Shown piece by piece: positions 25,729 through 53,174 of a stretch of 64,000 bases of DNA. The notes below the pieces were generated by a model. It had not been told where the DNA came from, searched no databases, and saw only the letters and a program-made list of their open reading frames with translations. A program made the translations under genes and the position numbers. Source of the stretch: Catenulispora sp. EB89 (GTDB lineage Bacteria > Actinomycetota > Actinomycetes > Streptomycetales > Catenulisporaceae); contig NZ_JBGCCU010000024.1 in assembly GCF_041261445.1 (NCBI RefSeq), forward strand, positions 62,001 through 126,000, given 5' to 3'. Each line of letters begins with the position of its first letter. Position 1 is the stretch's first letter.

Positions 25729-26112
25729 TCAGTCGTGAATGAGGTCGAACGACTCCCACGGCCCGATCGCCGTGCGGTTGGCGATCAACGGCGACGCGCC
25801 GGCGTTGTCCGCCGTCACGATGTCGTTGTTGGCGTGTGACCGGAAACTGACGCTCCCGTCGGAGTTGTTGATCAGATCGAACTCCTCCCACGGCCCGATG
25901 GCCGTCCGGTTCGCGATCAGCGGCGACGCCCCCGCGTTGTCCGCCGTCACGATGTCCCCGTTGGCGTGAGCACGAAGGCTGACACTCCCGTCAGCGTTGT
26001 TGATGAGATCGAACGTCTCCCACGTCCCCACGGCCGTCCGGTTGGCGATCAACGGCGACGCCCCGGCGTTGTCCGCCGTCACGATGTCCCCGTTCGCGTG
26101 CGCCCGAAGGCT
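25729..26112 (-). repeat. Three 132-bp fascin-like module repeats (GH95-like gene)
   Basis: Three in-frame copies of a 44-codon unit (starts at 26112, 25980 and 25848; the last is cut to 39 codons by the stop). Each reads S(L/F)R(A/S)HAN-DIVTADNAGASPLIANRTA-GWE-FDLI. Three such units make one beta-trefoil. Confidence 0.93.
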
Positions 26113-29100
26113 GATCGCCGATCCGCCGCTCCCGGCCCCCGACGCCGCCAGCGCGAACACGTGGATCGCCGGAGTCCCCGCGCTCAGTCCCCCGCCGCCG
26201 GGCAGCGTCACCGAAGCCACCGACTTCCCGGCGGTCAGCGTCACCGGCACGGAGAAGATGTTGCCGGACCCGCTGTACGTCGTGTTCCCCTGCCGGTTCT
26301 GGTAGGCCGAACTCACCGCCAGCGCACCACCGCTCGGCGGCGTCGTGGAGAACCAGTCCGACACCGTCAGGCTGTAACTCTGGGTACTGCCATCCGTGTA
26401 CGTGATCGTCCCGGATCCGGTCGCCGGACCGTAGTCGGCGGAGACCAGGAAGCCCAGCGTGCCCGACCCCGACAGGGAAATGGTCTGACCCTCAGCGACC
26501 GTGTTGTCATTGGCCCCGGCCGCCACGTTCGGGACCGTGAACGTCACCCCTGACGACGCCACCGAATCCCCCGGCCCGGCACCGGCATTGGTCAGCGCGG
26601 TCTCGGAGAAGCTGGCCCCGTTGCCGTCGAAGTTCCCGGCCGCCGTGTTGTTGTCCGCCGTGATCCCGACGTTGTTGAACGAAGCGGCCAGGTTCGGGAA
26701 CGACACAGCCGGGTCCAGACCGATCTGCACCTTGCCCAGGTGCCGCGCCGCGGTCGCCTTCGTCCCGGTCACCTGAGCGAACGGCAGCGACGTGGTCAGC
26801 GCCGAAGGCCGCTCGACCAGGTACGTCGAACCGGCCGTCACCGGCACGCTCAGCGTCCCGTTCGTGGTCGCCGCGACCACGACGGCCCCGCTCGACCCGT
26901 TCACCACCTCGGCCTGCTGGCCCGGCCAGGGATTGCGCACGGTCATCGTCTGCGTGCTGCCGGCCTGGATCGCGGCCGTGGCCAGCGTCCCGCCCTCGAC
27001 CTGCACGTCGACCTTCGTCCCGCCCTGCACCGCGACCGTCCCGGACGCGTCCCAGCCCGCAGGCCAGGCCGGAGCGAACCGCAGCGTCCCGTCGTAGTCC
27101 TGCACCAGCGCCTCGTCGACGGCCGTGGCCACCGTCGAGGACTGCTCGATGTACGGCTCGTCGCCGGTGTTGCCGTTGAACAGGTTCGCCATACCGCTGA
27201 TGTAGGCCTGATACCCCTGCGTCACCGCGTTCAGGTCCGAGGCGACCTCGCTGCCCAGCCCGAGCCGCGCCGCCTGCACCGCGTCGAAGTTCCAGTCCGG
27301 GTTCGTCTTGTTGACCCGGTCGGTGTACGTGCGCTGCGCCAACGCCGTCAGGTTGTCGCCGTTGACGACCGTGTTGTCGCCGATCAGACCGTACGGCCAG
27401 ACCGGCTCCAGCCCGATGTTCTCGCCGTTCTGCGGCTTGGCCGACGGCTGGTAGGAGTCGGCGATGATGTCGGTACCCTGCGCGTCGACGTTCGCCGCGG
27501 CGGACGCCGACGTCGGCTGCGGGTTCAGCAGCTGGGTCTTGCCCGAGTCGGTGCGGGCGTACGGCTCGATCTGCCCGAGCGCGGTGTTCAGCTGCGAGAC
27601 CAGCGACGGGTCGGAGTTCAGCTGTGTGGCGGCCTTCACCGTCGCGGAGAACAGCGCCTGGCTGGCGGCGATGTCGGTCGTCGGGTCCGTGACGGCCCAC
27701 TGCGTCTCGTGCGCGTTGGCGGTGGCGTGCAGGAAGTTGTCCGAGCCGACGCTCTGGTAGTTGAGCAGGAACGTCGCGGTCTGCTTCAGGATCGGGTAGT
27801 ACTTCTGCAGGAACGCCGCGTTACCAGTGTCCTGATACTGCTGCCAGACCCAGAGCGCGATCTCCGCGCCGCTGGTCAGCGTCAGCGCGTTGTAGCTCGG
27901 GCTGGACGCCTGCGCGCAGGAGGCGTTCTGCGTGTTGTTGCCGCCGTTGTAGAAGCCGTTTCCGTTGAACCGCATGGTCTCCGGCACGCAGGCCCCGGGC
28001 TTGCCACCCATCTGCGCGCTCGTCCAGGACTCGATGTTCGGCAGATCATTGAGATACATGTCGAAGATCGGCGTGTTGAGCGCGAAGTTGCCGGAGCTGA
28101 GGTTCGCCGCGATCTGTCCCCGCAGGTTCCACAGCCAGTACCCGGCCGGGTACCAGTCCTGTTTGTCCTGCGAGAAGTTGAACAGGTCCGCGACGCCGGC
28201 CTGGCTGCCGGGATAGGTGCCGGCATGCATCGTCGCGGCCTCGAAGTAGAGGTACAGCGTGCGCAGGTTCTCCATGTACTGCGCCGTGCCGTCCGAGGAG
28301 TTCATCTCGATCAGACCGCTGTTGGCCCAGTAGTTGTTCCACCACGACGACTGTGTGGCGAGCAGCGAGGAAGTACTGGCCGAGGCGTCGCCGCCGATGA
28401 CGGTGTTCGCGGTACTCGTCGGATCACCGCCGGTCCACTGCGGTGAGGCGACGACGATGCGGTACGACCCGTCGGAGTTGGGATTGAAACTCACCTGCAC
28501 CTGCGTGGAGTTCACCACCGACGCGGACACGTTCTGCCCGCCGGCGGTGACCGCGGCCATCGCGCCGAAGGTCTGCCCGGAGCTCCCGGTCTGCGAGTTG
28601 TCGACCCACGTCTGCGCGAGGCTGCCGACCGCACCGGAGGCGGCCGTGGACGGCGTCCGTCCGCTCCAAAGGCTCAGCGTGGCGGTCTGCCGCGCGCCGG
28701 GATTGGCGCCGGTCACGTTGACGACCAGCTCGTCCTTGCCCGCGGGCACCCACGCCTGGAGCGTCATCCCGCCCCCGGACTCGTTCAGCACCCCGTTGTA
28801 GAGGTCGAGCGATCCGGTGAAGTTCGAGGCGGAGGTCATCGCGGTGAGCCCGGGGATGTTCACCTGCCCCGGCGACAGCCGGTTCGGCATGGTGTCGCTG
28901 CGGTTGAGCTGCGCGGTGAACCCGTTCGCGGCCCACTCGGCGACCCCGAGCGAGCCGTTCCCCAGCGGCAGCGACTGCGTCGCGGCGTTGTTGGGCTGCC
29001 CCAGCGCGACGTCGGACCGCGAGACGACCCCGCCGGTGTTCAGCTGGAACGCGCCGTTCTGCCACGCGGTGGTGGTCGTGGCCGCGAGGGCCGGTGGGGC

Positions 29101-29187
29101 CAGCCCGCCCGCGATGACAGATGGCACGGCGATCATCACGGCCGCGGCAACGATGGACAAGCGAGTACGGGGATTTCGACTGGACAC
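25729..29187 (-). CDS. Secreted GH95-like glycoside hydrolase with fascin-like C-terminal module
   Basis: A 1152-residue secreted enzyme. GTG 29187 follows GGGAG and opens a signal peptide ending near APPALAA. Residues about 40-300 match the N-terminal beta-sandwich of GH95/GH65-type enzymes (SLPLGNGSLGVAEWA, then RSDTMPNR). Residues 320-740 are an (alpha/alpha)6-type catalytic region, with FNFSQDKQDWYPAGYWLWNL, NAHETQWAVTDPTTDIA (near residue 495) and GLEPVWPYGLIGD. GH95 enzymes are alpha-L-fucosidases or galactosidases; the linkage here is not provable. Residues about 830-1015 are a beta module shared with the GH3 enzyme, and 1026-1152 are three fascin-like repeats. It diverges from the GH42-related gene. 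Confidence 0.85.
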   Translation of the reverse strand: MSSRNPRTRLSIVAAAVMIAVPSVIAGGLAPPALAATTTTAWQNGAFQLNTGGVVSRSDVALGQPNNAATQSLPLGNGSLGVAEWAANGFTAQLNRSDTMPNRLSPGQVNIPGLTAMTSASNFTGSLDLYNGVLNESGGGMTLQAWVPAGKDELVVNVTGANPGARQTATLSLWSGRTPSTAASGAVGSLAQTWVDNSQTGSSGQTFGAMAAVTAGGQNVSASVVNSTQVQVSFNPNSDGSYRIVVASPQWTGGDPTSTANTVIGGDASASTSSLLATQSSWWNNYWANSGLIEMNSSDGTAQYMENLRTLYLYFEAATMHAGTYPGSQAGVADLFNFSQDKQDWYPAGYWLWNLRGQIAANLSSGNFALNTPIFDMYLNDLPNIESWTSAQMGGKPGACVPETMRFNGNGFYNGGNNTQNASCAQASSPSYNALTLTSGAEIALWVWQQYQDTGNAAFLQKYYPILKQTATFLLNYQSVGSDNFLHATANAHETQWAVTDPTTDIAASQALFSATVKAATQLNSDPSLVSQLNTALGQIEPYARTDSGKTQLLNPQPTSASAAANVDAQGTDIIADSYQPSAKPQNGENIGLEPVWPYGLIGDNTVVNGDNLTALAQRTYTDRVNKTNPDWNFDAVQAARLGLGSEVASDLNAVTQGYQAYISGMANLFNGNTGDEPYIEQSSTVATAVDEALVQDYDGTLRFAPAWPAGWDASGTVAVQGGTKVDVQVEGGTLATAAIQAGSTQTMTVRNPWPGQQAEVVNGSSGAVVVAATTNGTLSVPVTAGSTYLVERPSALTTSLPFAQVTGTKATAARHLGKVQIGLDPAVSFPNLAASFNNVGITADNNTAAGNFDGNGASFSETALTNAGAGPGDSVASSGVTFTVPNVAAGANDNTVAEGQTISLSGSGTLGFLVSADYGPATGSGTITYTDGSTQSYSLTVSDWFSTTPPSGGALAVSSAYQNRQGNTTYSGSGNIFSVPVTLTAGKSVASVTLPGGGGLSAGTPAIHVFALAASGAGSGGSAISLRAHANGDIVTADNAGASPLIANRTAVGTWETFDLINNADGSVSLRAHANGDIVTADNAGASPLIANRTAIGPWEEFDLINNSDGSVSFRSHANNDIVTADNAGASPLIANRTAIGPWESFDLIHD

Positions 29188-29545
29188 GAGCGCTCCCTGG
29201 ATGCGGCGCGTGAAGACGCCGTCACGTCGAAGACATCGGAGGTGTTGTAGCGCACGATCGGGACGGCGTCTAGGTATCAGGGGTGTTGCGCAACTTCTTA
29301 CGGCATGTCGCGACAGTTTTTTCGGTGACAGATCCAGGGGTTGCCCAGCCGCCCTGCGGCGACGGCGCGCGAGGGCCGCCGTGAGCACGCACTAGATCCA
29401 TACTTAGTCTTTACTCTTGAGGTTATTGCCATGAGAACCCTGATGTTGTTTTAGTGTTACGCATAAGTCAAGCCTCCCGCACAGGCGTTCCGCCGCCGAT
29501 TGTCTGGTTGCCGGCGCCCGGGCCCAGTCATCGGATGTATCCATC
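29188..29545. promoter_or_regulatory. Divergent promoter region of glycosidase genes
   Basis: 358 bases with no gene. It includes an AT-rich block (about 29397-29470) that probably carries the promoter of the rightward genes, and a perfect palindrome GTTGCGCAAC at 29285-29294 about 100 bases upstream of the leftward gene, a plausible operator half of LacI or ROK style. Exact promoters could not be placed. Confidence 0.45.
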
Positions 29546-31723
29546 ATGAGATTCAAGGCTCTGTCCTTCCTGGCAGCCTGCACGACAGCTGCGACAGCCT
29601 GGCTCGGCACCGCCTCCGCCGCCCCTGCCACCACCCCCGCCCAAGCCGCGGCCGCGCCGAGCCCGATGTGGGCCACCCAGCTCCAGTTCGACAACAACGG
29701 GACGGCCTGGTCCCAGGCCAGCTTCGCGGCGTTGAAGGCGAAAGGCCTGACCACGGCGGAGATCGACATGCCATGGGGCACGGTCGAGCCGTCGCAGGGC
29801 AGCTTCAGCTTCACCGAGCTCGATCAGGAACTCGCGAACGCGGCGGCCGGCGGAATCAAGCTCATACCCATCTTCTGGTACTCCGGCTGGGGCGGCAGTC
29901 CCGCGCCCTGGGTCACCGGCCGAGAGGTCGACAGCACCGGCGCGAGCAGCCCGGCGCCGGTCTGGTGGGACCCGGTCAACCAGCCCGCCTACTTCGACTA
30001 CGTCACGAAGACGGTCGCGCACATCGCCGGGAACGCCGGCTACGGCGGCAGCATCCTCGACTACGGCTTCCTCGACGCGCAGTGGGACATCAACGGCGGC
30101 GCCTCGGGCTGGGCTCAAGCCGACATCGACGAGTTCCACAACGCCTACCTGCCGAACACCTACGGCACCATCGCGGCGTTCAACACCAAATATCAGACCT
30201 CTTACGCGTCCTTCAGCGCCGTCCCGGCCGCAGCGATCGGCCAATCACTGTGGGGCGTCTACCAAGCCTTCCGGGCCTGGAGCGTGCAGGACACCTACGG
30301 CCGGCTCACCGCCGCGGTCCGTGCCGTCACCGCCTCGACACCGCTCTACTACTACTTCGGCGGGCACTTCGGGAACGCCGTCAACTACGCGAACATCCCC
30401 GACATCTTCTTCACCCTGGCCAAGCAGTACTCGGCCACGGTGATCGTGGACGCCGCGCAGTCCCCCGGCCTGACGCTGACCTTCGGCAGCCTGGCCCGCG
30501 CCTACGGAGTCCCGCTGGCGCAGGAGTGGACGGCGCCGAGCGACAGCACACAGCTCGCCGCGCAGGCGGTGCAGTGGCTGTCCAACTACGGGATGGGCCT
30601 GCCGGAAGGCGGCGGCGAGGACTTCTTCATCCACGACGGCACGCAGAAGGACGTCGTCGGCTGGCCGATCTACACCTCCTGGCTGCCGACACTGCCGACC
30701 ATCACCGGCTCCTATCCGCAGCAGCCGGTGGCCGTCTACATGGACTTCTCCCAGGCCTACGGCAACACCTCCGGCGGCGCCGTGGGCAGCATGGAGGACG
30801 CGATCACGAACCTCTGGAACGGCTACCAGGCCGGGTTCGCGGTCGTCACCAGCCAGGAGGTCGACAACGGGACCGTGAAGCTGTCGTCCTACAAGGCGGT
30901 TCTGCCGATGAACGGCACGGACGCGAACCTGAGCGCCTACCAGTCCGCGGGCGGAACGGTGCTGAGCAACGGATCGCAGCTCGCCTCGTACGCCCCGGCC
31001 TACGCGTCCCTCGCCAACAGCGGCGTGCTGCAAGTCGTACCGGACGTCGCCACGAACGGCACCAGCGCGACGGTGACGCTCGCGGACATCACCTCCGGCA
31101 CCGCCTACAACGCCGCAGTGACCTTCAGCATCGCAGGCCTCGGTATGACGCCCGGGAGCTACCACGTCGTCGATGTCAGCGGGAACGTGGTACCGCAGGC
31201 CGCCGTCAGCGGCGGGATCTGCACGGCCCCGAGCGTCCAGGCCGCGCAGCTCGTGCAGTGGAACATCGTGGCCGGGACAGCTCCCGCCGGAACCCCGGTT
31301 CCCTCGGCCTGCGGCGGCAGCGGCGGCACTCCGGTGATCAGCCTGCGGGCGCACGCGAACAACGACATCGTCACGGCGGACAACGCCGGCGCGGCGCCGC
31401 TGATCGCCAACCGCACCGCGATCGGCACCTGGGAGCAGTTCGACCTGATCTCCAACTCCGACGGGAGCGTCAGCTTCCGCGCGCACGCCAACGGCGACAT
31501 CGTCACCGCCGAGAACGCCGGCGCGGCGTCGCTGATCGCGAACCGCACCGCGATCGGGCCGTGGGAGGAGTTCGACCTCATCCACAACTCCGACGGCAGC
31601 GTCAGCTTCCGCGCTCACGCCAACGGCGACGTCGTCACCGCCGAGAACGCCGGCTCCAGCCCGCTGATCGCCAACCGCACCGCCATCGGGCCGTGGGAGG
31701 AGTTCGACCTCATCCACGACTGA
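29546..31723 (+). CDS. Secreted GH42-related glycosidase with fascin-like C-terminal module
   Basis: A 725-residue secreted protein with a signal peptide cut near GTASAAPA. Residues about 40-400 look like a clan GH-A barrel related to GH42: AEIDMPWGTVEPSQGSFSF, then KLIPIFWYSGW, and after strand 4 a DEFHNAYLPNTYGTIAAFNTKY segment that matches the GH42 layout. The usual Asn-Glu acid/base pair is not present there (LDAQWDING instead); Glu327 in LAQEWTAPS is a candidate nucleophile. Residues 430-590 contain a trimerisation-like and a beta domain. Residues 599-725 are three fascin-like repeats almost identical to those of its neighbours. The substrate is unknown; a beta-galactoside or other plant or microbial polysaccharide is possible. 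Confidence 0.75.
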   Translation: MRFKALSFLAACTTAATAWLGTASAAPATTPAQAAAAPSPMWATQLQFDNNGTAWSQASFAALKAKGLTTAEIDMPWGTVEPSQGSFSFTELDQELANAAAGGIKLIPIFWYSGWGGSPAPWVTGREVDSTGASSPAPVWWDPVNQPAYFDYVTKTVAHIAGNAGYGGSILDYGFLDAQWDINGGASGWAQADIDEFHNAYLPNTYGTIAAFNTKYQTSYASFSAVPAAAIGQSLWGVYQAFRAWSVQDTYGRLTAAVRAVTASTPLYYYFGGHFGNAVNYANIPDIFFTLAKQYSATVIVDAAQSPGLTLTFGSLARAYGVPLAQEWTAPSDSTQLAAQAVQWLSNYGMGLPEGGGEDFFIHDGTQKDVVGWPIYTSWLPTLPTITGSYPQQPVAVYMDFSQAYGNTSGGAVGSMEDAITNLWNGYQAGFAVVTSQEVDNGTVKLSSYKAVLPMNGTDANLSAYQSAGGTVLSNGSQLASYAPAYASLANSGVLQVVPDVATNGTSATVTLADITSGTAYNAAVTFSIAGLGMTPGSYHVVDVSGNVVPQAAVSGGICTAPSVQAAQLVQWNIVAGTAPAGTPVPSACGGSGGTPVISLRAHANNDIVTADNAGAAPLIANRTAIGTWEQFDLISNSDGSVSFRAHANGDIVTAENAGAASLIANRTAIGPWEEFDLIHNSDGSVSFRAHANGDVVTAENAGSSPLIANRTAIGPWEEFDLIHD
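31340..31723 (+). repeat. Three 132-bp fascin-like module repeats (GH42-related gene)
   Basis: Copies begin at 31340, 31472 and 31604, the last ending at the stop after DLIHD. Same 44-residue unit as in the neighbouring glycosidases, with long stretches of identical DNA. Confidence 0.93.
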
Positions 31724-31810
31724 GATCCGAACGCCCCCACAGCTACCAGCCCCGTCAGCACCGTCCTTTGTCCCCGCTCCAACCCCGCCACCGAGCCCGG
31801 AGTCGAGTCG

Positions 31811-34800
31811 ATGAGACGTACCACCCCCCACCGCAAGCTGCTGGCCGCGGGATCGGCCCTCGTCCTGGTCTGCGCTATCGCAGCGTCCGCGACCAGCGTC
31901 GCGGCCGCCCCCGCGAAGAGTGCCGTCCCCACACCCGCGGCCAGCAGCACGCCGATCTACCTGAACACCAGCTATCCCTTCGAAGCCCGCGCCGCGGATC
32001 TGGTCTCGCGGATGACGCTGGCCGAGAAGGCAGCACAGCTGAACACGACCAGCGCCCCGGCGATCCCGCGCCTGGGCGTCCAGCAGTACACGTATCAAGC
32101 CGAGGCCCAGCACGGCATCAACTACCTCGGCGCCGACCAGAACAGCGGCAGCGTCGCCGGCAACCCGCCGGTCGCGACCAGCTTCCCGACTAACTTCGCG
32201 TCCTCGATGTCCTGGGATCCGGCGCTGGTCTACCAGGAGACGACAGCAATCTCGGACGAGGCGCGCGGCCTGGTGGACAAGTCGCTGTTCGGCACCGGCC
32301 AGAACAACCTCGGCCCCTCGGCGAGCGACTACGGCTCGCTGACGTTCTGGGCCCCGACCGTGAACCTGGACCGGGATCCGCGCTGGGGCCGCACGGACGA
32401 GGCGTTCGGTGAGGACCCGTACCTGGTCGGGCAGATGGCCGGGGCGTTCGTGAACGGCTTCCAGGGCAACTCCATGACCGGCCAGTCGCTGAACGGCTAC
32501 CTCAAGGCCGCCGCGACCGCCAAGCACTACGCCCTGAACAACGTGGAGCAGGACCGGACGGGCATCTCCTCGAACGTCAGCGACACCGACCTGCGCGACT
32601 ACTACACCAAGCAGTTCGCGTCCCTGATCGAGAACTCGCATGTCGCGGGTCTGATGACCTCCTACAACGCGATCAACGGCACGCCCTCGGTCGCCGACAC
32701 CTACACGGCGAACCAGCTCGCGCAGCGCACGTACGGCTTCAACGGCTACGTCACCTCCGACTGCGGCGCCGTCGGCACCACCTACCGCAACTTCCCGGCC
32801 GGCCACGCGTGGGCCCCGCCGGGCTGGACCACGGACGACGGCGACACGAACGCGATCTGGACCAACACCTCCACCGGCGCGAAGATCTCCGGCGCGGCCG
32901 GCGGCGAGGCCTACTCGCTGCGCGCCGGCACGCAGGTCAACTGCGGCGGCGACGAGTTCTCTCTGCAGAACATCCAAGCTGCGATCAGCGCCGGGATCCT
33001 GTACGAGGGCGTCATCGACGCGGACCTGACGAAGCTGTTCACGATCCGCATGGAGACCGGCGAGTTCGACCCGGCGTCGCAGGTTCCTTACACCAGCATC
33101 ACCAAGGCGCAGATCCAGAGCCCGGCGCACCAGGCACTGGCGACCACCGTCGCCGACAACTCACTGGTGCTGCTGAAGAACGGCAACGTCTCGGGGACGA
33201 ACGCACCGCTGCTGCCGGCCACCGCGAGCAAGCTGAACAACGTCGTCATCCTCGGCGACATGGCGAACGCCGTGACCCTCGGCGACTACTCCGGGGCGCC
33301 GACCCTCCAGGTGACCGCGGTGCAGGGCCTGACGTCGGCGATCAAGGCGGCGAATCCGAACGCGAACATCCTGTTCGACGCGGCCGGCACCTCCAGCACC
33401 GCGACCGGCGCCGCGACGCTCAGCAGCGCGACGCAGACCGCGATCAAGAACGCGGACCTGGTCCTGCTGTTCGTCGGCACCAACCAGAACAACGCGCAGG
33501 AGGGCAACGACCGCACCACGCTGAACATGCCGGGCAACTACGACTCGCTGATCACCCAGACCACGGCGCTGGGCAACCCGAAGACCGCGCTGGTCATCCA
33601 GTCCGACGGCCCGGTGAAGATCAGCGACGTCCAGGGCAGCGTGCCTGCGATCCTGTTCAGCGGCTACAACGGCGAGAGCCAGGGCACCGCGCTGGCCGAC
33701 GTGCTGCTCGGCAAGCAGAACCCGAGCGGGCACCTGAACTTCACCTGGTACGCCGACGACTCGCAGCTCCCTGCGATGAGCAACTACGGCCTGACCCCCG
33801 GCGACACCAGCGGTCTGGGCCGGACGTACCAGTACTTCACCGGCACACCGACGTACTCGTTCGGCTACGGCCTGAGCTACTCGAACTTCAGCTACTCCGC
33901 CGCGACCGTCGACAACGCCAGCCCGAACGCCGACGGCACGGTCAACGTCTCGTTCACGGTGACCAACTCCGGGAGCAGCGCGGGAGCGACCGTCGCGCAG
34001 TTGTACGCCGGGACTCAGTTCACGGTCTCCGGTGTGCAGCTGCCGAACAAGCGGCTCGTGGGCTTCCAGAAGACGAACGTCCTGAACCCCGGAGCGTCCC
34101 AGCAGATCACCATCCCGGTGAAGATCAGCGATCTGTCACTGTGGAACGCCACGACGATGAAGTCAGTGGTCTACGACGGCACGTACAGCCTCCAGGTCGG
34201 CGCCAGTTCCTCCGACATCCGCTCGACGGTGAACGTCGCGGTGTCCGGCGCGATCACACCGAAGGTGCAGTACGTGACCGTGCAGCCGGAGAGCGTCGTC
34301 TACGACGCCGGGTCGACCATCGACCTGACCGGCAAGAACCAGTGGATCAAGGACGACACCACCGGCGTCGGATCGCAGCCGCAGGGCCGGGACATGAGCG
34401 TGACCGCGGACAACGTGGTCGAGGCGGTGAACAACGACCAGTCGTTCGTGAACCTGGCCAACGCCTCGGTCAGCTACAGCAGCAGCGACCCGACGGTCGC
34501 CACCGTCACCAGCACCGGCCAGGTCCACGCGGTCGGCGACGGCACGGCGCTGATCAGCGTGACGGTCAACGGCGTCACCGGCACCGCGCCGTTCGTGGTG
34601 CGGCACACGCTGAAGCTCGCGGCGCCGGCGCTGGTCACGACCGGTGGGAGCGGCACGGCGACCACGACGTTCGTCAACGGGGGCACCGCCGCCGAGACGA
34701 ACGTGGCCGTGGCGCTGAGCGTGCCGTCGGGCTGGAGCGCGCAGGCCACGACGCCGGCGACGTTCGCCAGCGTCGGCGGCGGGCAGTCGGTGCAGACGAC

Positions 34801-35887
34801 GTGGAAGGTGACCGCGGCTTCCGGCGCGGCGGCCGGACCGTACGCGGTGTCGGCACAGGCCACGTTGAACGGCAGCGGTCCGTACAGCGACTCCGGCACG
34901 ATGAACATCGCTTACGCCTCGCTGAACGCCGCCTTCAACAACATCGGCATCACCGAAGACGCGAACACGGCGAACGGCAACCTGGACGGCGGCGGGACGA
35001 GCTATTCGTCGCAGGCGCTGTCCGCAGCCGCCGGGATCACGCCGGGGGCGACGCTCACGCACGACGGCGCGACCATCAGCTGGCCGAACGCCGCGCCGGG
35101 GACGAACGACGACGTCGTGGCCTCCGGGCAGACGGTCCCGGTGTCCGGGTCGGGCACGACGCTGTCGGTGGTCGGCACGTCGACGTACGGGGCTTCCTCG
35201 GGGAGCGGGACCGTCATCTACACCGACGGGAGCACGCAGGACTACAGCCTGGGGTTCGCGGACTGGTGGTCCAAGACAGCGGCTCAGGGTACTGACACCA
35301 TCGCCAGCCCGACGTACATCAACGGCACCGGCGGGAAGATCACGCAGGCGGTGAACCTGTACTACGCGGCGATTCCGTTGCAGGCGGGCAAGACGGTGCA
35401 GGCCGTGGTGCTGCCGAATGTCAGCTCGGGTGCGGCGCGGAGTTCGGTGTCGATGCACATCTTCTATGTGGGGGTGTCCGGCAATACGGCGAGTTCGGTG
35501 ATCAGCCTGCGGGCCCATGCGAACAACGACATCGTGACGGCCGACAACGCCGGCGCGTCGCCGCTGATCGCGAACCGGACGGCGGTCGGGCCGTGGGAGT
35601 CCTTCGATCTGATCCACAACGCGGATGGGAGCGTCAGCTTCCGGTCGCACGCCAACAACGACATCGTGACGGCGGACAACGCCGGGGCGTCGCCGCTGAT
35701 CGCCAACCGCACGGCCATCGGACCGTGGGAGGAGTTCGACCTGATCAAGAACTCCGATGGCAGCGTCAGCTTCCGGTCCCATGCCAACAACGACATCGTG
35801 ACCGCTGACAACGCCGGGGCATCGCCGCTGATCGCCAACCGCACGGCCATCGGACCGTGGGAGGAGTTCGACCTCATCACCGACTGA
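31811..35887 (+). CDS. Large secreted GH3 glycosidase, multi-domain
   Basis: A 1358-residue secreted enzyme starting 87 bases after the previous stop, likely the same operon. A signal peptide is followed by GH3 N-domain (MTLAEKAAQL, TVNLDRDPRWGR, AKHYALNN) with nucleophile Asp317 in GYVTSDCGAV, then GH3 C-domain and fibronectin-III-like cap (SFGYGLSYSNF), a BIG2-like Ig domain (VTSTGQVHAVGDGTALI), a NEW3-like domain (VALSVPSGWSAQ), a beta module at about 1036-1215 shared with the GH95-like enzyme, and three fascin-like repeats from residue 1232. SDC rather than SDW at the nucleophile is common in beta-xylosidase-type GH3, so beta-xylosidase, arabinosidase or beta-glucosidase are the options. 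Confidence 0.92.
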   Translation: MRRTTPHRKLLAAGSALVLVCAIAASATSVAAAPAKSAVPTPAASSTPIYLNTSYPFEARAADLVSRMTLAEKAAQLNTTSAPAIPRLGVQQYTYQAEAQHGINYLGADQNSGSVAGNPPVATSFPTNFASSMSWDPALVYQETTAISDEARGLVDKSLFGTGQNNLGPSASDYGSLTFWAPTVNLDRDPRWGRTDEAFGEDPYLVGQMAGAFVNGFQGNSMTGQSLNGYLKAAATAKHYALNNVEQDRTGISSNVSDTDLRDYYTKQFASLIENSHVAGLMTSYNAINGTPSVADTYTANQLAQRTYGFNGYVTSDCGAVGTTYRNFPAGHAWAPPGWTTDDGDTNAIWTNTSTGAKISGAAGGEAYSLRAGTQVNCGGDEFSLQNIQAAISAGILYEGVIDADLTKLFTIRMETGEFDPASQVPYTSITKAQIQSPAHQALATTVADNSLVLLKNGNVSGTNAPLLPATASKLNNVVILGDMANAVTLGDYSGAPTLQVTAVQGLTSAIKAANPNANILFDAAGTSSTATGAATLSSATQTAIKNADLVLLFVGTNQNNAQEGNDRTTLNMPGNYDSLITQTTALGNPKTALVIQSDGPVKISDVQGSVPAILFSGYNGESQGTALADVLLGKQNPSGHLNFTWYADDSQLPAMSNYGLTPGDTSGLGRTYQYFTGTPTYSFGYGLSYSNFSYSAATVDNASPNADGTVNVSFTVTNSGSSAGATVAQLYAGTQFTVSGVQLPNKRLVGFQKTNVLNPGASQQITIPVKISDLSLWNATTMKSVVYDGTYSLQVGASSSDIRSTVNVAVSGAITPKVQYVTVQPESVVYDAGSTIDLTGKNQWIKDDTTGVGSQPQGRDMSVTADNVVEAVNNDQSFVNLANASVSYSSSDPTVATVTSTGQVHAVGDGTALISVTVNGVTGTAPFVVRHTLKLAAPALVTTGGSGTATTTFVNGGTAAETNVAVALSVPSGWSAQATTPATFASVGGGQSVQTTWKVTAASGAAAGPYAVSAQATLNGSGPYSDSGTMNIAYASLNAAFNNIGITEDANTANGNLDGGGTSYSSQALSAAAGITPGATLTHDGATISWPNAAPGTNDDVVASGQTVPVSGSGTTLSVVGTSTYGASSGSGTVIYTDGSTQDYSLGFADWWSKTAAQGTDTIASPTYINGTGGKITQAVNLYYAAIPLQAGKTVQAVVLPNVSSGAARSSVSMHIFYVGVSGNTASSVISLRAHANNDIVTADNAGASPLIANRTAVGPWESFDLIHNADGSVSFRSHANNDIVTADNAGASPLIANRTAIGPWEEFDLIKNSDGSVSFRSHANNDIVTADNAGASPLIANRTAIGPWEEFDLITD
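35504..35887 (+). repeat. Three 132-bp fascin-like module repeats (GH3 gene)
   Basis: Copies begin at 35504, 35636 and 35768, the last ending after DLITD. The second and third copies share more than 50 consecutive identical bases, indicating recent duplication or gene conversion. Confidence 0.93.
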
Positions 35888-36037: not shown

Positions 36038-37222
36038 TTGCGGGTCCTCCAGGTCCTGCTCGCCAGCGCCACGACCAGTCGGCCCGAGCTGGTCCGGCTC
36101 ACCGGGCTGTCCCGCGCGACGGTGTCCGTGCTGGTCGCGGACCTGATCGCGGCCGGGCTGGTGGTGGAGGAGAACGGCGGGAACGGCGGGAGCGGGGCCG
36201 TCGAGCCGGAGAACCGCTCGATGGGCCGTCCGGCGCTGCCGTTGGCGCTCAGCCGTTCCGTCGCGTACGCGATCGGCGCGGACATCGGGCACGCGCATGT
36301 GCGGGTCGCGCTGTGCGACGTGCACGGCACGCCGCTGTGGGAGACGGTCGAGGCCAAGGAGGTCGACCGCGCGCCGCACGAGACCCTCGACCTGGCCGCC
36401 GACCTGGTCCGCCGCGCGATGACCGAGTACGGCGTCCCGCGCGAGCGGGTCCTGGGCCTCGGCGCGGGCATCGCGGCCCCGGTGGACGCGGTCGGCGCGC
36501 TGTCGGCGGAGGGCATCATGCCCGGCTGGACCGGCATCCGCCCCGGCCCCGAACTCGAGCACCGCACCGGCCTGCCCACCGAGATCACGAACGACGCGAA
36601 CGCCGGCGCCCTGGCCGAGCACATGTACGGTGCCGGCCGCGACAGCGCGGACATGGTCTACATCCGCCTGTCCGCCGGCATCGGCGCCGGCGTCATCTCC
36701 GACGGCCGCCTCCAACTCGGCGCCGGCGGCCTGGCCGGCGAGATCGGGCACCTGCCGGCCGTCCACGACGGCCTGGTCTGCCGCTGCGGCAACCGCGGCT
36801 GTCTGGAAACGATCGCGAGCCCGGTGGCCGTGGCCCGCCTGCTCCAGGACAGCTGGGGCGAACCGGTGGCCCCCGCCGACCTCCCGGCCCTGCTGGCGAC
36901 CCGCACCCCGGGTACGGCACGCGTCGTGGAGGACACCGGCGAAGCGGTCGGCCGCGCCCTGGCATCCCTGGTGACACTGATGAACCCGCGCCTGATCGTG
37001 GTCGGCGGCGACCTCGCCACCATCGGCGAGCCGCTGTTCGAACCCATCCGCCGCGGCATCGCCCGCTACGCCCTGCCCTCAGCGGCGAGCCAGGTCACGG
37101 TCGTAGCCGGCCGCCTCGGCTCCGGCGCCGAAGCCCGCGGCGCGGCGGCCCGGGTACTGGCGCGGGCGCCGCAGACGCTGGCGGTGATGAGCGGGGCGGA
37201 AGCCGGAGACCTGGCGGTGTGA
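36038..37222 (+). CDS. ROK-family transcriptional regulator
   Basis: A ROK repressor of at least 394 residues. Winged helix LVRLTGLSRATVSVLVADLIAAG near the N-terminus; then IGADIGHAHVRVAL, NDANAGALAEHMYG, and the full zinc motif GEIGHLPAVHDGLVCRCGNRGCLE (split about residues 231-254), unlike the other ROK protein in this window. TTG 36038 is the first standard start, but the family's N-terminal NLREEGRLRVL pattern continues upstream in frame, where GAGGAG (35990-35995) is followed only by ATC or GTC codons. The true start is therefore uncertain. Directly downstream of the glycosidase cluster, it is the likely sugar-responsive regulator of it. Confidence 0.88.
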   Translation: MRVLQVLLASATTSRPELVRLTGLSRATVSVLVADLIAAGLVVEENGGNGGSGAVEPENRSMGRPALPLALSRSVAYAIGADIGHAHVRVALCDVHGTPLWETVEAKEVDRAPHETLDLAADLVRRAMTEYGVPRERVLGLGAGIAAPVDAVGALSAEGIMPGWTGIRPGPELEHRTGLPTEITNDANAGALAEHMYGAGRDSADMVYIRLSAGIGAGVISDGRLQLGAGGLAGEIGHLPAVHDGLVCRCGNRGCLETIASPVAVARLLQDSWGEPVAPADLPALLATRTPGTARVVEDTGEAVGRALASLVTLMNPRLIVVGGDLATIGEPLFEPIRRGIARYALPSAASQVTVVAGRLGSGAEARGAAARVLARAPQTLAVMSGAEAGDLAV

Positions 37223-49607: not shown

Positions 49608-52600
49608 ATGCAACGAAGAGCCCGGCTGGCGGTCACCGTCAGCCTCCTCGCCCTCGCGGGTGCGGCCCTGTACTCGCCGGCCGCCGCCACCGCGGCCGGC
49701 TCCGGCGGAAAAGCCCAGGCCACAGCCGCATCGACCGCGGTCACCGACGGCAGCGCCCGGTTCGAAGTACTCACTCCCACGTTGATCCGCATGGAGTACG
49801 CCGGGGACAACAAGTTCCAGGATGCTGCGACTTTCAACGCTGTAAACCGCTCGTTTCCGTCCGTACCGTTCACGACGTCGGTCAGCGGCGGTTTCCGCGT
49901 GATCAGCACCGGTTCCGTGACGCTTCGGTACAAGGAGGGCAGCGGGCCGTTCACCGCTGCCAACACCTCGGTCACGGTCTCGGGCACCAACGCGACCGCC
50001 GCGCCGTCGTTCCCGTCCTACTGCGTGTTCGGTACCGCGTGCGAGGCCGAGGACGGCTTGCTCAGCTGGGGCGCGATGGCCGCCTACGACCACAACAACC
50101 ACACCGGGTCCGGCTTCGTCGCGGGCTTCAACCAGGTGCACAGCGAGGTCCAGCAGGACGTCTCGGCCGTGCCGTCGAGCGGGTCGTACCAACTCAGCGT
50201 CCGCTACGCCAACGCCCAGGGCGGCGACGGCCAGAGCATCACCCGGACGCTGTCGACCACCGTCAACGGCGCGCCGGGACCGACGCTCAGCATGCCGGTC
50301 ACCGGTTCGTGGGACACCTGGTCCACGGTTTCGGTGCCGGTCACGCTGAACGCCGGCGTCAACACCATCGGCATCGTGCAGAACGCCTCCGACAGCGCCA
50401 ACGTGAACCTGGACAGCCTGGCCGTCACCGCCTCCGGCGCCGGCTACCCCGCACCCGGGGCCTCCAGCGCGCTGCTGACCACCGCCTACGGCGCCGGCCC
50501 CACCGACACCCTCGGCGGCTGGTCCAGCTCGCTGGACAACCAGAACCCGGCCACCGCGACAGAGCGGCCGGGGATCCTGGACCGCGACGGCTGGTACCTG
50601 CTGGACGACTCGCGCTCGGCGCTGTTGAACGCGAACGGCACCGTCACCGACCGGCCCGGCCACGGCGGTCAGCCGTATCAGGACGGGTACTTCTTCGGGT
50701 ACGGGACCAACTACAAGCAGGGACTGTCCGACCTCAATGCCCTGACTGGCAACACGAACCTGCTCCCGGAATCCGCTTACGGCGTCTGGTATTCGCGCTA
50801 CTACGCCTACAGCACGTCCGACTACGAGAACACGCTGCTGCCGACCTTCCGCAGCACGTTCACGCCGCTGGACTGGCTGGTCATCGACACCGACTGGAAG
50901 TCGCCGAACCAGTGGGACGGCTGGAACTGGAACAACTCCCTGTTCCCTGATCCCAACGCCTTCATGAGCTGGACGCAACAGCAGGGGTTGGAGACGGCGC
51001 TCAACATCCACACCGCCATCTCCGGATCGGACCCGCAGTTCGCCGGCGCGAACAGCACGGCCGGCGGCCTGTCCCCGGACGTCACGCGCTCCGGCGACTA
51101 CGAGTTCGACTGGTCGAACCCGAACCAGCTGGCGGCGTACTTCAACCTGCACAAGCCGTTCGAGCAGCAGGGCGTGCGCGAGTGGTGGCTGGACTACTGC
51201 GGCGGCTGCGGCAACTCCACCGCGAGCGACCCGCACGTCGCCCCGGGCAACTTCATCAACCAGGCCTATGCCCAGGACGGCACAGCGCGCGGGCTGCGCG
51301 GCTTCTCCTTCGGCCGCATCGGCTCCTCCTCGCAGGCCGGGGACAACGGCAACTACGCGCTCGGGCCGTGGTCCGAGCGGCGCAACACCATGCAGTTCAC
51401 CGGGGACACCGAGGCCACCTGGGCCATGATGGCGCTGGAGGCGCAGTTCGCCGGGGACGAGGCCGCGGCCGGGATCTCCAACGTCAGCAACGACATCGGC
51501 AGCTTCCACGGCAACCACCTGGCCGACGACATGTACGCGCGGTGGGTGCAGCTCGGCACCTTCCAGCCGGTCGACCGGCTGCACTCCGACCACGGCGACC
51601 GGCTGCCCTGGAACTACGGCGCGGCCGCAGACGCCAGCGCCGAGCGGTTCCTGCGGCTGCGGGAGGCGCTGGTGCCGTACACGTACACGCTGGCCGCGCA
51701 GGCGAACACCACCGGCGTGCCGATCATCAGGCCCCTGTATCTCGACTATCCGTCGAACAACGAGGCGTACACCTTCAAGCAGGAGTACCTGTACGGCGAC
51801 AACGTGCTCGTCGCTCCCATCACCAGCGCCAGCGACGCGAACGGAAACGGTTCCGTGAGCGCCTGGATCCCGCCGGGCACCTGGACCGACTACTTCACCG
51901 GGACCAGCTACACCGGCCCGACCACCGTCACCATCACCGACCCGCTCTCGCAGATGCCGGTGCTGATCAAGAGCGGCGGCATCATGCCGCAGCGCACCAA
52001 CTACGTGCCCGACGCCAACTCCTCGCCGCTGACGCAGGTCACGCTGTCCGTCGCGGCCGGGGCGGACGGCTCGTTCCCGCTCTACCAGGACGCCGGCGAG
52101 GGCAACGGCTACCAGAGCGGCCAGTCCACCACCACGCCGATCTCCTGGAGCGACGCGTCCCGGACGCTGACCATCGGCGCCGACACCGGCGGCTTCAGCG
52201 GCGCGGCGACTCAGCGCTCGTACACGCTGCGGCTGTCGAACACGGTCGCGCCGACCGCGGTGTTCGTCGACGGCACGCAGGTGCCGGAGACCGCGTGGGC
52301 GTACAACCCGAGCCTGCGGACGACGACCGTCACCACCGGCGCGCTGCCGGTCGGCTCCTCGCACACGATCAGCCTGACCGGGAGCGCCACGGCCAACCCG
52401 ACGAGCGGGGAGGTGATCGGCGACGCGGGCCTGTGCCTGGACACCCGCGGCGGCACGACGACCAACGGCACGGCGATGCAGCTGTACACGTGCAACCACG
52501 GCACTGCGCAGCAGTTCACCTACACGGCCAACGGCACCACCGGCGGCGCGCTGCAGGTGCTGGGGAAGTGCGTGGACGCGGCCAACGCCGGTACCGCGAG

Positions 52601-53174
52601 CGGGACGGCCATCCAGCTCTACGACTGCAACACCACCGGGTCGCAGAACTGGGTCGCGCAGAGCAACGGCGAGTTGGTGAACCCGCAGTCGGGGCGCTGC
52701 CTCACGGTGCCCGGCGGGAACACCACTCCGGGTGCGGTCCAGCTGCAACTGCAGGACTGCAACGCGGGCGCAGCGCAGGTGTGGAAGCTGCCGCCGGGGC
52801 CGGTGAACGGGCCTGGCGGACTGTGCGTGGACGTGGCGGGCGCCGATCCGTCGTACGCGACCAGCGTGCAGCTGTGGACGTGCAACCAGACGGACGCGCA
52901 GCGGTGGTCCACGCCGGGCGACCAGACGATCCGCGTGTTCGGGAAGTGCCTCGACGTGAACTACGGCGGGACGGCGAACGGGACGGCGGTGCAGCTGTAC
53001 GACTGCAACGGGAGCGGTTCGCAGACCTGGGTGACGCAGGCGAACGGGTCGCTGCTGAACCCGCAGTCGGGGCGGTGCCTGGACGATCCGAACAACAGTG
53101 AGAAGGCAGGGGATCTGCTGCAGATCTACGACTGCGACAACACGTCGGCGCAGGTGTTCAGCCTGGGCGGCTGA
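49608..53174 (+). CDS. Secreted GH31 glycosidase with CBM and ricin-type lectin repeats
   Basis: A 1188-residue secreted enzyme with a signal peptide ending near AAATAAGS. The GH31 beta-sandwich (ARFEVLTPTLIRMEYAGDNKF) is interrupted by a CBM35-like carbohydrate-binding insert (about 130-280, EAEDGLLSWGAM). The catalytic barrel has nucleophile Asp529 in REWWLDYCGG and acid/base Asp600 in FTGDTEATW, typical of alpha-glucosidase or alpha-xylosidase. Residues 930-1188 are two ricin-B/CBM13 beta-trefoils with repeated QxW-like QLYDCN and SGRCL motifs. The extra domains suggest attack on bound polysaccharide. It follows a kinase gene but is not obviously co-transcribed with it. Confidence 0.92.
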   Translation: MQRRARLAVTVSLLALAGAALYSPAAATAAGSGGKAQATAASTAVTDGSARFEVLTPTLIRMEYAGDNKFQDAATFNAVNRSFPSVPFTTSVSGGFRVISTGSVTLRYKEGSGPFTAANTSVTVSGTNATAAPSFPSYCVFGTACEAEDGLLSWGAMAAYDHNNHTGSGFVAGFNQVHSEVQQDVSAVPSSGSYQLSVRYANAQGGDGQSITRTLSTTVNGAPGPTLSMPVTGSWDTWSTVSVPVTLNAGVNTIGIVQNASDSANVNLDSLAVTASGAGYPAPGASSALLTTAYGAGPTDTLGGWSSSLDNQNPATATERPGILDRDGWYLLDDSRSALLNANGTVTDRPGHGGQPYQDGYFFGYGTNYKQGLSDLNALTGNTNLLPESAYGVWYSRYYAYSTSDYENTLLPTFRSTFTPLDWLVIDTDWKSPNQWDGWNWNNSLFPDPNAFMSWTQQQGLETALNIHTAISGSDPQFAGANSTAGGLSPDVTRSGDYEFDWSNPNQLAAYFNLHKPFEQQGVREWWLDYCGGCGNSTASDPHVAPGNFINQAYAQDGTARGLRGFSFGRIGSSSQAGDNGNYALGPWSERRNTMQFTGDTEATWAMMALEAQFAGDEAAAGISNVSNDIGSFHGNHLADDMYARWVQLGTFQPVDRLHSDHGDRLPWNYGAAADASAERFLRLREALVPYTYTLAAQANTTGVPIIRPLYLDYPSNNEAYTFKQEYLYGDNVLVAPITSASDANGNGSVSAWIPPGTWTDYFTGTSYTGPTTVTITDPLSQMPVLIKSGGIMPQRTNYVPDANSSPLTQVTLSVAAGADGSFPLYQDAGEGNGYQSGQSTTTPISWSDASRTLTIGADTGGFSGAATQRSYTLRLSNTVAPTAVFVDGTQVPETAWAYNPSLRTTTVTTGALPVGSSHTISLTGSATANPTSGEVIGDAGLCLDTRGGTTTNGTAMQLYTCNHGTAQQFTYTANGTTGGALQVLGKCVDAANAGTASGTAIQLYDCNTTGSQNWVAQSNGELVNPQSGRCLTVPGGNTTPGAVQLQLQDCNAGAAQVWKLPPGPVNGPGGLCVDVAGADPSYATSVQLWTCNQTDAQRWSTPGDQTIRVFGKCLDVNYGGTANGTAVQLYDCNGSGSQTWVTQANGSLLNPQSGRCLDDPNNSEKAGDLLQIYDCDNTSAQVFSLGG

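Follow-up and report, generated by a model that had tools for sequence, protein, structure and literature searches.

A CBM92-type beta-trefoil module on three neighbouring glycosidases of Catenulispora as a candidate glucan anchor

Why do three different glycosidases, encoded next to one another, end in the same small module? The question is raised by a stretch of 64,000 nucleotides (the window, that is, the whole stretch of DNA analysed) of Catenulispora sp. EB89, a soil actinomycete. The genome is 11.9 Mb in 70 contigs and the window lies within contig 24. A first-pass annotation had described the module as a fascin-like tag, spread or homogenised between the enzymes at the DNA level. Judged by its sequence and its predicted fold, the module is explained by a known family, CBM92, and not by a new kind of tag. 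We think it probable that it is a three-lobed glucan grip that anchors glycosidases, that it has been inherited with each enzyme and that its units have been drawn together.

The three enzymes and their common C-terminus

Translation of three open reading frames, at 25729-29388 on the minus strand and at 29546-31723 and 31811-35887 on the plus strand, gives proteins that each end in three units of 44 residues. The positions first given for the triplicated regions (25729-26112, 31340-31723 and 35504-35887) proved exact by translation, stop codons being part of those ranges, and the 132-nt spacing was also recovered by repeat finding in the window. The enzyme names proposed earlier were backed by Pfam, with matches to the GH95 catalytic domain (7.7e-10) and to GH42 (6.2e-06), both weak and partial, and to GH3 (3.5e-44).

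The GH95-like enzyme, assigned from its Pfam match and from PDB relatives that are GH95-type proteins, corresponds to an ORF of 1219 aa with a signal-peptide-like N-terminal part; its true start is probably downstream of the GTG at 29388. Its module occupies 25732-26112 (minus strand), with units at 25981-26112, 25849-25980 and 25732-25848. The GH42/GH35-like enzyme (725 aa) has weak PDB relatives among the GH35/GH42 beta-galactosidases, a signal-peptide-like N-terminus and a module at 31340-31720 (plus strand; units 31340-31471, 31472-31603 and 31604-31720). The GH3 enzyme (1358 aa), whose closest solved relatives in a PDB search are beta-xylosidases, contains Fn3-like, Big_2 and NPCBM-associated domains and ends in a module at 35504-35884 (plus strand; units 35504-35635, 35636-35767 and 35768-35884). 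Signal-peptide-like N-terminal stretches were recognised by eye in all three proteins. None of the three contains an LPxTG motif and thus the trefoil tail is the only evident anchor of these secreted enzymes.

The GH95-like and GH3 enzymes have a second domain in common, directly before the trefoil (26119-26694, minus strand, and 34919-35497, plus strand; about 190 aa, 44% identical). No other Pfam family has its best-matching stretch inside this domain at E<=1, and its PDB matches, Azi28 and AziU2, are weak (E 0.005). A gene for a ROK-family regulator adjoins the cluster at 36038-37222 (plus strand), as its homologues do in related genomes; in two of these (G002 and G003) the ROK gene follows GH95, with neither GH42 nor a close GH3 in between. 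In five related genomes (G001, G002, G003, G008 and G009) an SGNH/GDSL hydrolase bearing the module lies beside GH95 (L043:8242-9861, minus; L044:7638-9275, minus; L045:11027-12637, plus; L046:9310-11022, minus; L047:9558-11279, plus). This hydrolase has no match in the window at E<=1e-3, and a GDSL protein encoded elsewhere in the same genome (L015) is 67% identical to it. A trefoil of another kind occurs in a further glycosidase of the window, the GH31 enzyme encoded at 49608-53174 (plus strand; 1188 aa), which has CBM6/35-like and ricin-type beta-trefoil domains.

Sequence relationship and predicted fold of the module

The module comprises 127 aa in three 44-aa units, and its sole strong matches in the PDB are 7zoh and 7zoi, two CBM92 domains of Chitinophaga pinensis. 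Their E-values were 2e-14 and 6.2e-12 by phmmer and 6.7e-20 and 8.2e-16 in a profile search, the next-best matches being far weaker (0.0092 and 0.00084, respectively). Local alignment with 7zoh gave 40 identical residues out of 96 (41.7%). In structure alignments identity was 35% over 122 residues with 7zoh and 29% over 123 with 7zoi, both lower than the overall identity of at least 37% given by the authors for members within the family (PMC11039641).

CBM92 was characterised in 2024 by Hao et al. (PMC11039641; PDB 7zoh, 7zoi, 7zon, 7zoo and 7zop). Each of its three subdomains has a WExF motif with an Arg close by; the Trp provides the stacking surface for glucose, which the Glu holds in place, and domains that have lost the Trp bind less strongly (PMC11039641). 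The module shares with this family a length of about 125-150 aa, three tandem subdomains with a terminal WExF in each and an Arg nearby, a beta-trefoil fold and an occurrence on diverse CAZymes (PMC11039641). The pocket residues R, W, E and F are present in all nine units of the window and, across seven genomes of the genus, in 66 of the 66 units that make up 22 cluster modules. Of the 138 units in 46 further modules, 119 retain the R, 128 the W, 136 the E and all 138 the F. The residue two positions before the Trp is Gly in the window modules, whereas CBM92 has Asp or Asn there, as in 7zoh; consequently, one contact differs from 7zoh. Pfam's own name for the domain is PF25490, DUF7910. In two scans of related proteins, with 33 members each, every member matched this model in its module at E<=1e-5, and the window proteins score 33.1-34.5 bits, just short of its cutoff of 35.

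A model of the module built on a diverse alignment of 52 rows reached a pLDDT of 97.0 and a pTM of 0.89. A narrow alignment of 28 close modules gave a pLDDT of 43, so that the good fold comes from the diverse alignment only. The predicted fold is the beta-trefoil that the first-pass annotation had expected of three units. In a Foldseek search its best match was CBM92-A (7zoi, 2.3e-11), and the first nine rows were all CBM92 chains. VIA-align placed it on CBM92-B (7zoh) with Z 23.4, at 0.9 A over 122 residues. The same method gave Z 21.4 at 1.1 A and about 23% identity for fascin, only 2 Z units below CBM92. The earlier term fascin-like is thus apt for the fold and fails for the nearest relative, CBM92 being closer both by sequence and by Z. 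Fascin itself is made of four trefoils and bundles actin. Its Pfam model, PF06268, gave no hit at E<=1 in any of the three window proteins, and one other protein of the genome scores 20.5 bits against it, below the cutoff of 23.1.

Other carbohydrate-binding and anchoring families were considered. The ricin-type model PF14200 gave 15.2 bits for the GH42-like enzyme, below its cutoff of 25.6, and was not reported for the GH95-like and GH3 enzymes. In CBM13 the acidic pocket residue comes from another strand than the loop of the aromatic residue, whereas in CBM92 the Trp and Glu are adjacent in WExF (PMC11039641). The conserved Trp and Glu of the module are arranged in the latter way and we rejected a ricin-type/CBM13 trefoil, with which the module has only its fold in common. 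No dockerin model of Pfam or NCBIfam matched the three proteins at E<=1, and nothing points to an assembly of the enzymes beyond a likely common ligand; the dockerin-like purpose first suggested is not supported.

Putative ligand and spread of the module

All three modules sit on carbohydrate-active enzymes, as CBM92 almost always does, and their sequences are best read as a shared sugar-binding tag that probably gives each enzyme three glucose or beta-glucan sites. The CBM92 domains tested so far prefer glucans with beta-1,6-linked glucose, although some members naturally lack certain WExF sites (PMC11039641). We hypothesize that the Trp-Glu-Arg pocket of each lobe would grip one terminal glucosyl unit of a beta-glucan. 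The module, itself non-catalytic, could then hold the enzymes by avidity, with as many as three weak contacts, to surfaces rich in glucan, for instance mixed plant litter or the walls of fungi, lichens or oomycetes. The enzymes held there, none of them a glucanase by family, would trim side chains in proximity to each other; from their families we infer that fucose, galactose and xylose or arabinose side chains are the substrates of the set. If this is right, the module offers a testable guess of function (beta-glucan, three sites) for DUF7910, which is found on many actinomycete enzymes, and adds to CBM92 partner families whose own substrate is unlikely to be the binding target. The GH95-like, GH42/35-like and GH3 partners are unnamed in the available text of PMC11039641. 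According to that text the 12 domains tested came from Bacteroidota, a myxobacterium and an archaeon, with no actinomycete among them, and the authors had already noted members in Terrabacteria. CBM92 has also been tabulated in Planotetraspora (PMC11431748). A literature search on fascin-like, CBM92 and Catenulispora carbohydrate-binding proteins, with subscription journals mostly outside its scope, gave no paper on this locus among those listed.

The module could instead be a lectin of the CBM92 fold with a changed ligand, binding the plant substrate of its own enzymes, for example xyloglucan or another polysaccharide rich in side chains, and not beta-1,6-glucan. We regard this as unlikely, although the enzyme families of the cluster (GH95, GH35/42-like, a GH3 near beta-xylosidases, and the SGNH/GDSL hydrolase of the relatives) would suit the trimming of Fuc-Gal-Xyl side chains. 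Side chains of this kind are those of xyloglucan. One member of CBM92, lacking WExF, binds carrageenan (PMC11039641), which sets a precedent for a change of ligand within the family. However, the conservation of the glucose-pocket residues in every unit of the 22 cluster modules argues against such a change here, and the range of enzymes that bear the module fits poorly with one enzyme-specific substrate.

This range was examined in the same genome and beyond it. Three more genes with the module lie elsewhere in this genome, outside the window, and two of them encode an ArabFuran-catalytic protein and the GDSL hydrolase. The third (L013:2873-4903, plus strand) encodes six units, or two trefoils, in a protein that by eye resembles an S53 sedolisin-type peptidase; its only Pfam matches at E<=0.001 are to the module and, overlapping with this, to FRG1, the preceding domain receiving no name. 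The nine copies counted earlier therefore hold for the window, while genome-wide six genes carry 22 units with the W[EQ]xF motif. The ArabFuran-catalytic protein (L014:2816-4798, minus strand) has six units, the first and last of which lack the pocket Trp. Of ten genomes of the genus, nine, among them that of the window, have module matches at E<=1e-6. At E<=1e-8 matches were found in 23 of 197 genomes of the order, a set drawn from a larger group and including the nine of the genus.

In a wider scan of genome contigs, 237 stretches encode a relative of the module. The best 80 of these were kept and 66 were used for partner counts, once 12 loci from Catenulispora and two that are truncated (L117 and L120) had been set aside; the counts lean to close relatives. 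Among the first 33 of the 66 the partners were GH95 catalytic (13), GDSL hydrolase (5), ArabFuran (3) and GH3 (1). Among the second 33 they were GH3 (5), GH99 (4), glucose/sorbosone dehydrogenase (3), GH25 (2), GH5 (2) and ArabFuran (1). With 237 matching stretches and many partner families, the module is a generic domain. A generic domain with unrelated partners and no sugar or wall binding was the case that the first-pass annotation had set against its own proposal. The wide spread and the varied partners are indeed found, but the characterised CBM92 relatives contradict the part about binding. The ArabFuran-catalytic, GH99, GH25 and dehydrogenase-type partners are those that weigh against an enzyme-specific substrate.

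One of the roles first suggested for the tag, attachment of the enzymes to a glycan of the mycelium that produces them, suits a tail common to several enzymes and forming their only evident anchor; we nevertheless find it quite improbable, since the domain is taxonomically scattered and two relatives among the best 80 of the 237 stretches are labelled Rubrivivax and Rhizobacter, which would share no surface glycan with actinomycetes.

Inheritance and internal symmetry

We return to the CBM92-type glucan anchor and to how three enzymes came to carry it. The modules of the window are 86-92% identical in protein sequence, and a third alternative is that their repeats recombine between the three genes, protein similarity following from copying at the DNA level. 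We compared the nine units with 500 sets recoded at random with local codon usage. The longest in-register identical run between different genes is 38 nt, within what recoding produces (mean 33 nt, 95% limit 42), whereas a run of 53 nt between units 2 and 3 of the GH3 module, the longest overall, lies beyond it. The long identical DNA reported earlier is thus out of the ordinary inside the GH3 module and not between genes. Averaged over all 36 unit pairs, run length (22.0 nt, against at most 20.8 recoded) and DNA identity (0.835, against at most 0.814) exceed all 500 recodings, and these averages, which favour copying, take in nine within-module pairs and are also lifted by plain shared descent.

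Silent codons allow a comparison across genomes. Among 22 modules from seven genomes, modules of different genes have a silent-codon identity of 0.641 in the same genome (26 pairs) and 0.643 in different genomes (154 pairs), little above the value of about 0.616 given by codon usage alone. Modules of the same gene in different genomes have 0.692 (51 pairs). These tests were run without the modules of G005 and G006 and without genes outside the cluster; the GH95 gene of G004 is split, with the catalytic part on one contig and the module on another (L048 and L049), and their fusion there is assumed. The expectation in the first-pass annotation that the copies would be more alike within the locus than between genomes is overall not borne out by these figures. 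On the DNA tree of the modules the gene label changes four times, with a minimum of three, and the genome label 17 times. Moreover, AU tests reject a single clade for the six modules of G000 (the window's genome) and its sister G004 (p 0.004), for the eight of G008 and G009 (p 0.010) and for the four of G001 (p 0.0006). Modules are thus inherited mainly by gene.

A weak local effect of copying in the window's own genome is possible. Its three gene pairs have silent identities of 0.726, 0.719 and 0.664, on average 0.703, where comparisons with different genes of other lineages average 0.658 (sd 0.063); for G004 the two averages are 0.700 and 0.639. However, six and five of 22 cross-lineage values, respectively, are as high, and no such excess is present in G001, G008 and G009. 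For all three gene pairs, silent identity is a little higher within genomes than between them, the difference being 0.015-0.028. The slight excess in the window's lineage weakens the statement that modules are inherited by gene only. The GH3 modules of G008 and G009 stand beside GH42 modules on the DNA tree, as an exchange between these genes would have it, but GH3 as a single clade is not rejected (p 0.377), the protein tree groups the five GH3 modules with one from Actinacidiphila acididurans (support 85/94), and we did not retain this candidate. Taken as the general explanation, copying between the genes appears very unlikely to us.

In the reading that we favour, the module would have been fused to the enzymes ahead of the radiation of the genus and then passed on with each of them. 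Species that possess the GH95, GH42 and GH3 enzymes share 90-98% identity in the catalytic parts, with the module present on each, and a GH3 enzyme of Actinacidiphila acididurans (81% identical) also bears it; the fusions are consequently older than the genus.

What remains most interesting is the internal symmetry of the module, which is mildly unusual. Mean identity between units is 85.5% in the GH95-like, 81.2% in the GH42-like and 88.9% in the GH3 enzyme, far above that in 46 other actinomycete modules hand-picked for diversity out of 61 extracted (mean 64.6%, module means 51-82%). Even so, three of the 46 are as high as the least symmetric GH module of the cluster, and a second GH95-like paralogue in G009 (L053) has a unit identity of 0.846. 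The units of the other modules have distinct position signatures, 137 of 138 being assigned to their own position in a test that included the unit itself, and in the cluster modules positional identity is blurred, chiefly in the first and second units.

Silent sites point the same way. Units of one module share 0.712 of them, against 0.654 for units at different positions of the same gene in other genomes. In a lineage-collapsed permutation the observed value was reached in 5 of 2000 runs, and the difference is positive in 18 of 22 modules and in 10 of 13 lineage-by-gene cells. These figures agree with, and modestly support, recombination now and then between tandem units. Homogenisation, as first proposed, thus finds little footing between the enzymes, where similarity mainly follows the gene, and a modest one inside the module. 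A similar within-module excess is seen in 40 other modules (0.722 against 0.662, the codon usage of those species being uncontrolled), and we discarded DNA-level symmetry as a special mark of this locus. Only the symmetry at the protein level is therefore out of the ordinary, and the silent excess may be a property of the family. We propose that the tandem units of each module would be drawn towards one sequence while the three pockets are kept intact.

It is tempting to go one step further, to a reading that we hold doubtful but possible: in Catenulispora-type genomes, a trivalent glucan grip would be kept near threefold-symmetric by recombination among its own units, and would keep a whole group of enzymes that trim side chains together on a surface which none of them breaks down. 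If true, the module would be a community tether and not an enzyme-specific binding module, and a natural counterpart of the designed symmetric trefoils. Two of these, ThreeFoil and Symfoil, are among the better structural matches of the module and are likewise threefold-symmetric in sequence; they differ from it in being designed and only 12-20% identical, and the symmetry of the window module is natural and incomplete. Moreover, the modules form a natural series, their unit identities spanning about 51% to about 92%, in which the reasons for the loss or retention of symmetry by trefoils can be studied.

The protein tree unites the cluster-type modules (97/96) and sets them off from five modules of lower symmetry, among them modules on GH95 relatives of other genera. 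The symmetric type could have replaced an older one on GH95, or homogenised units could merely look alike.
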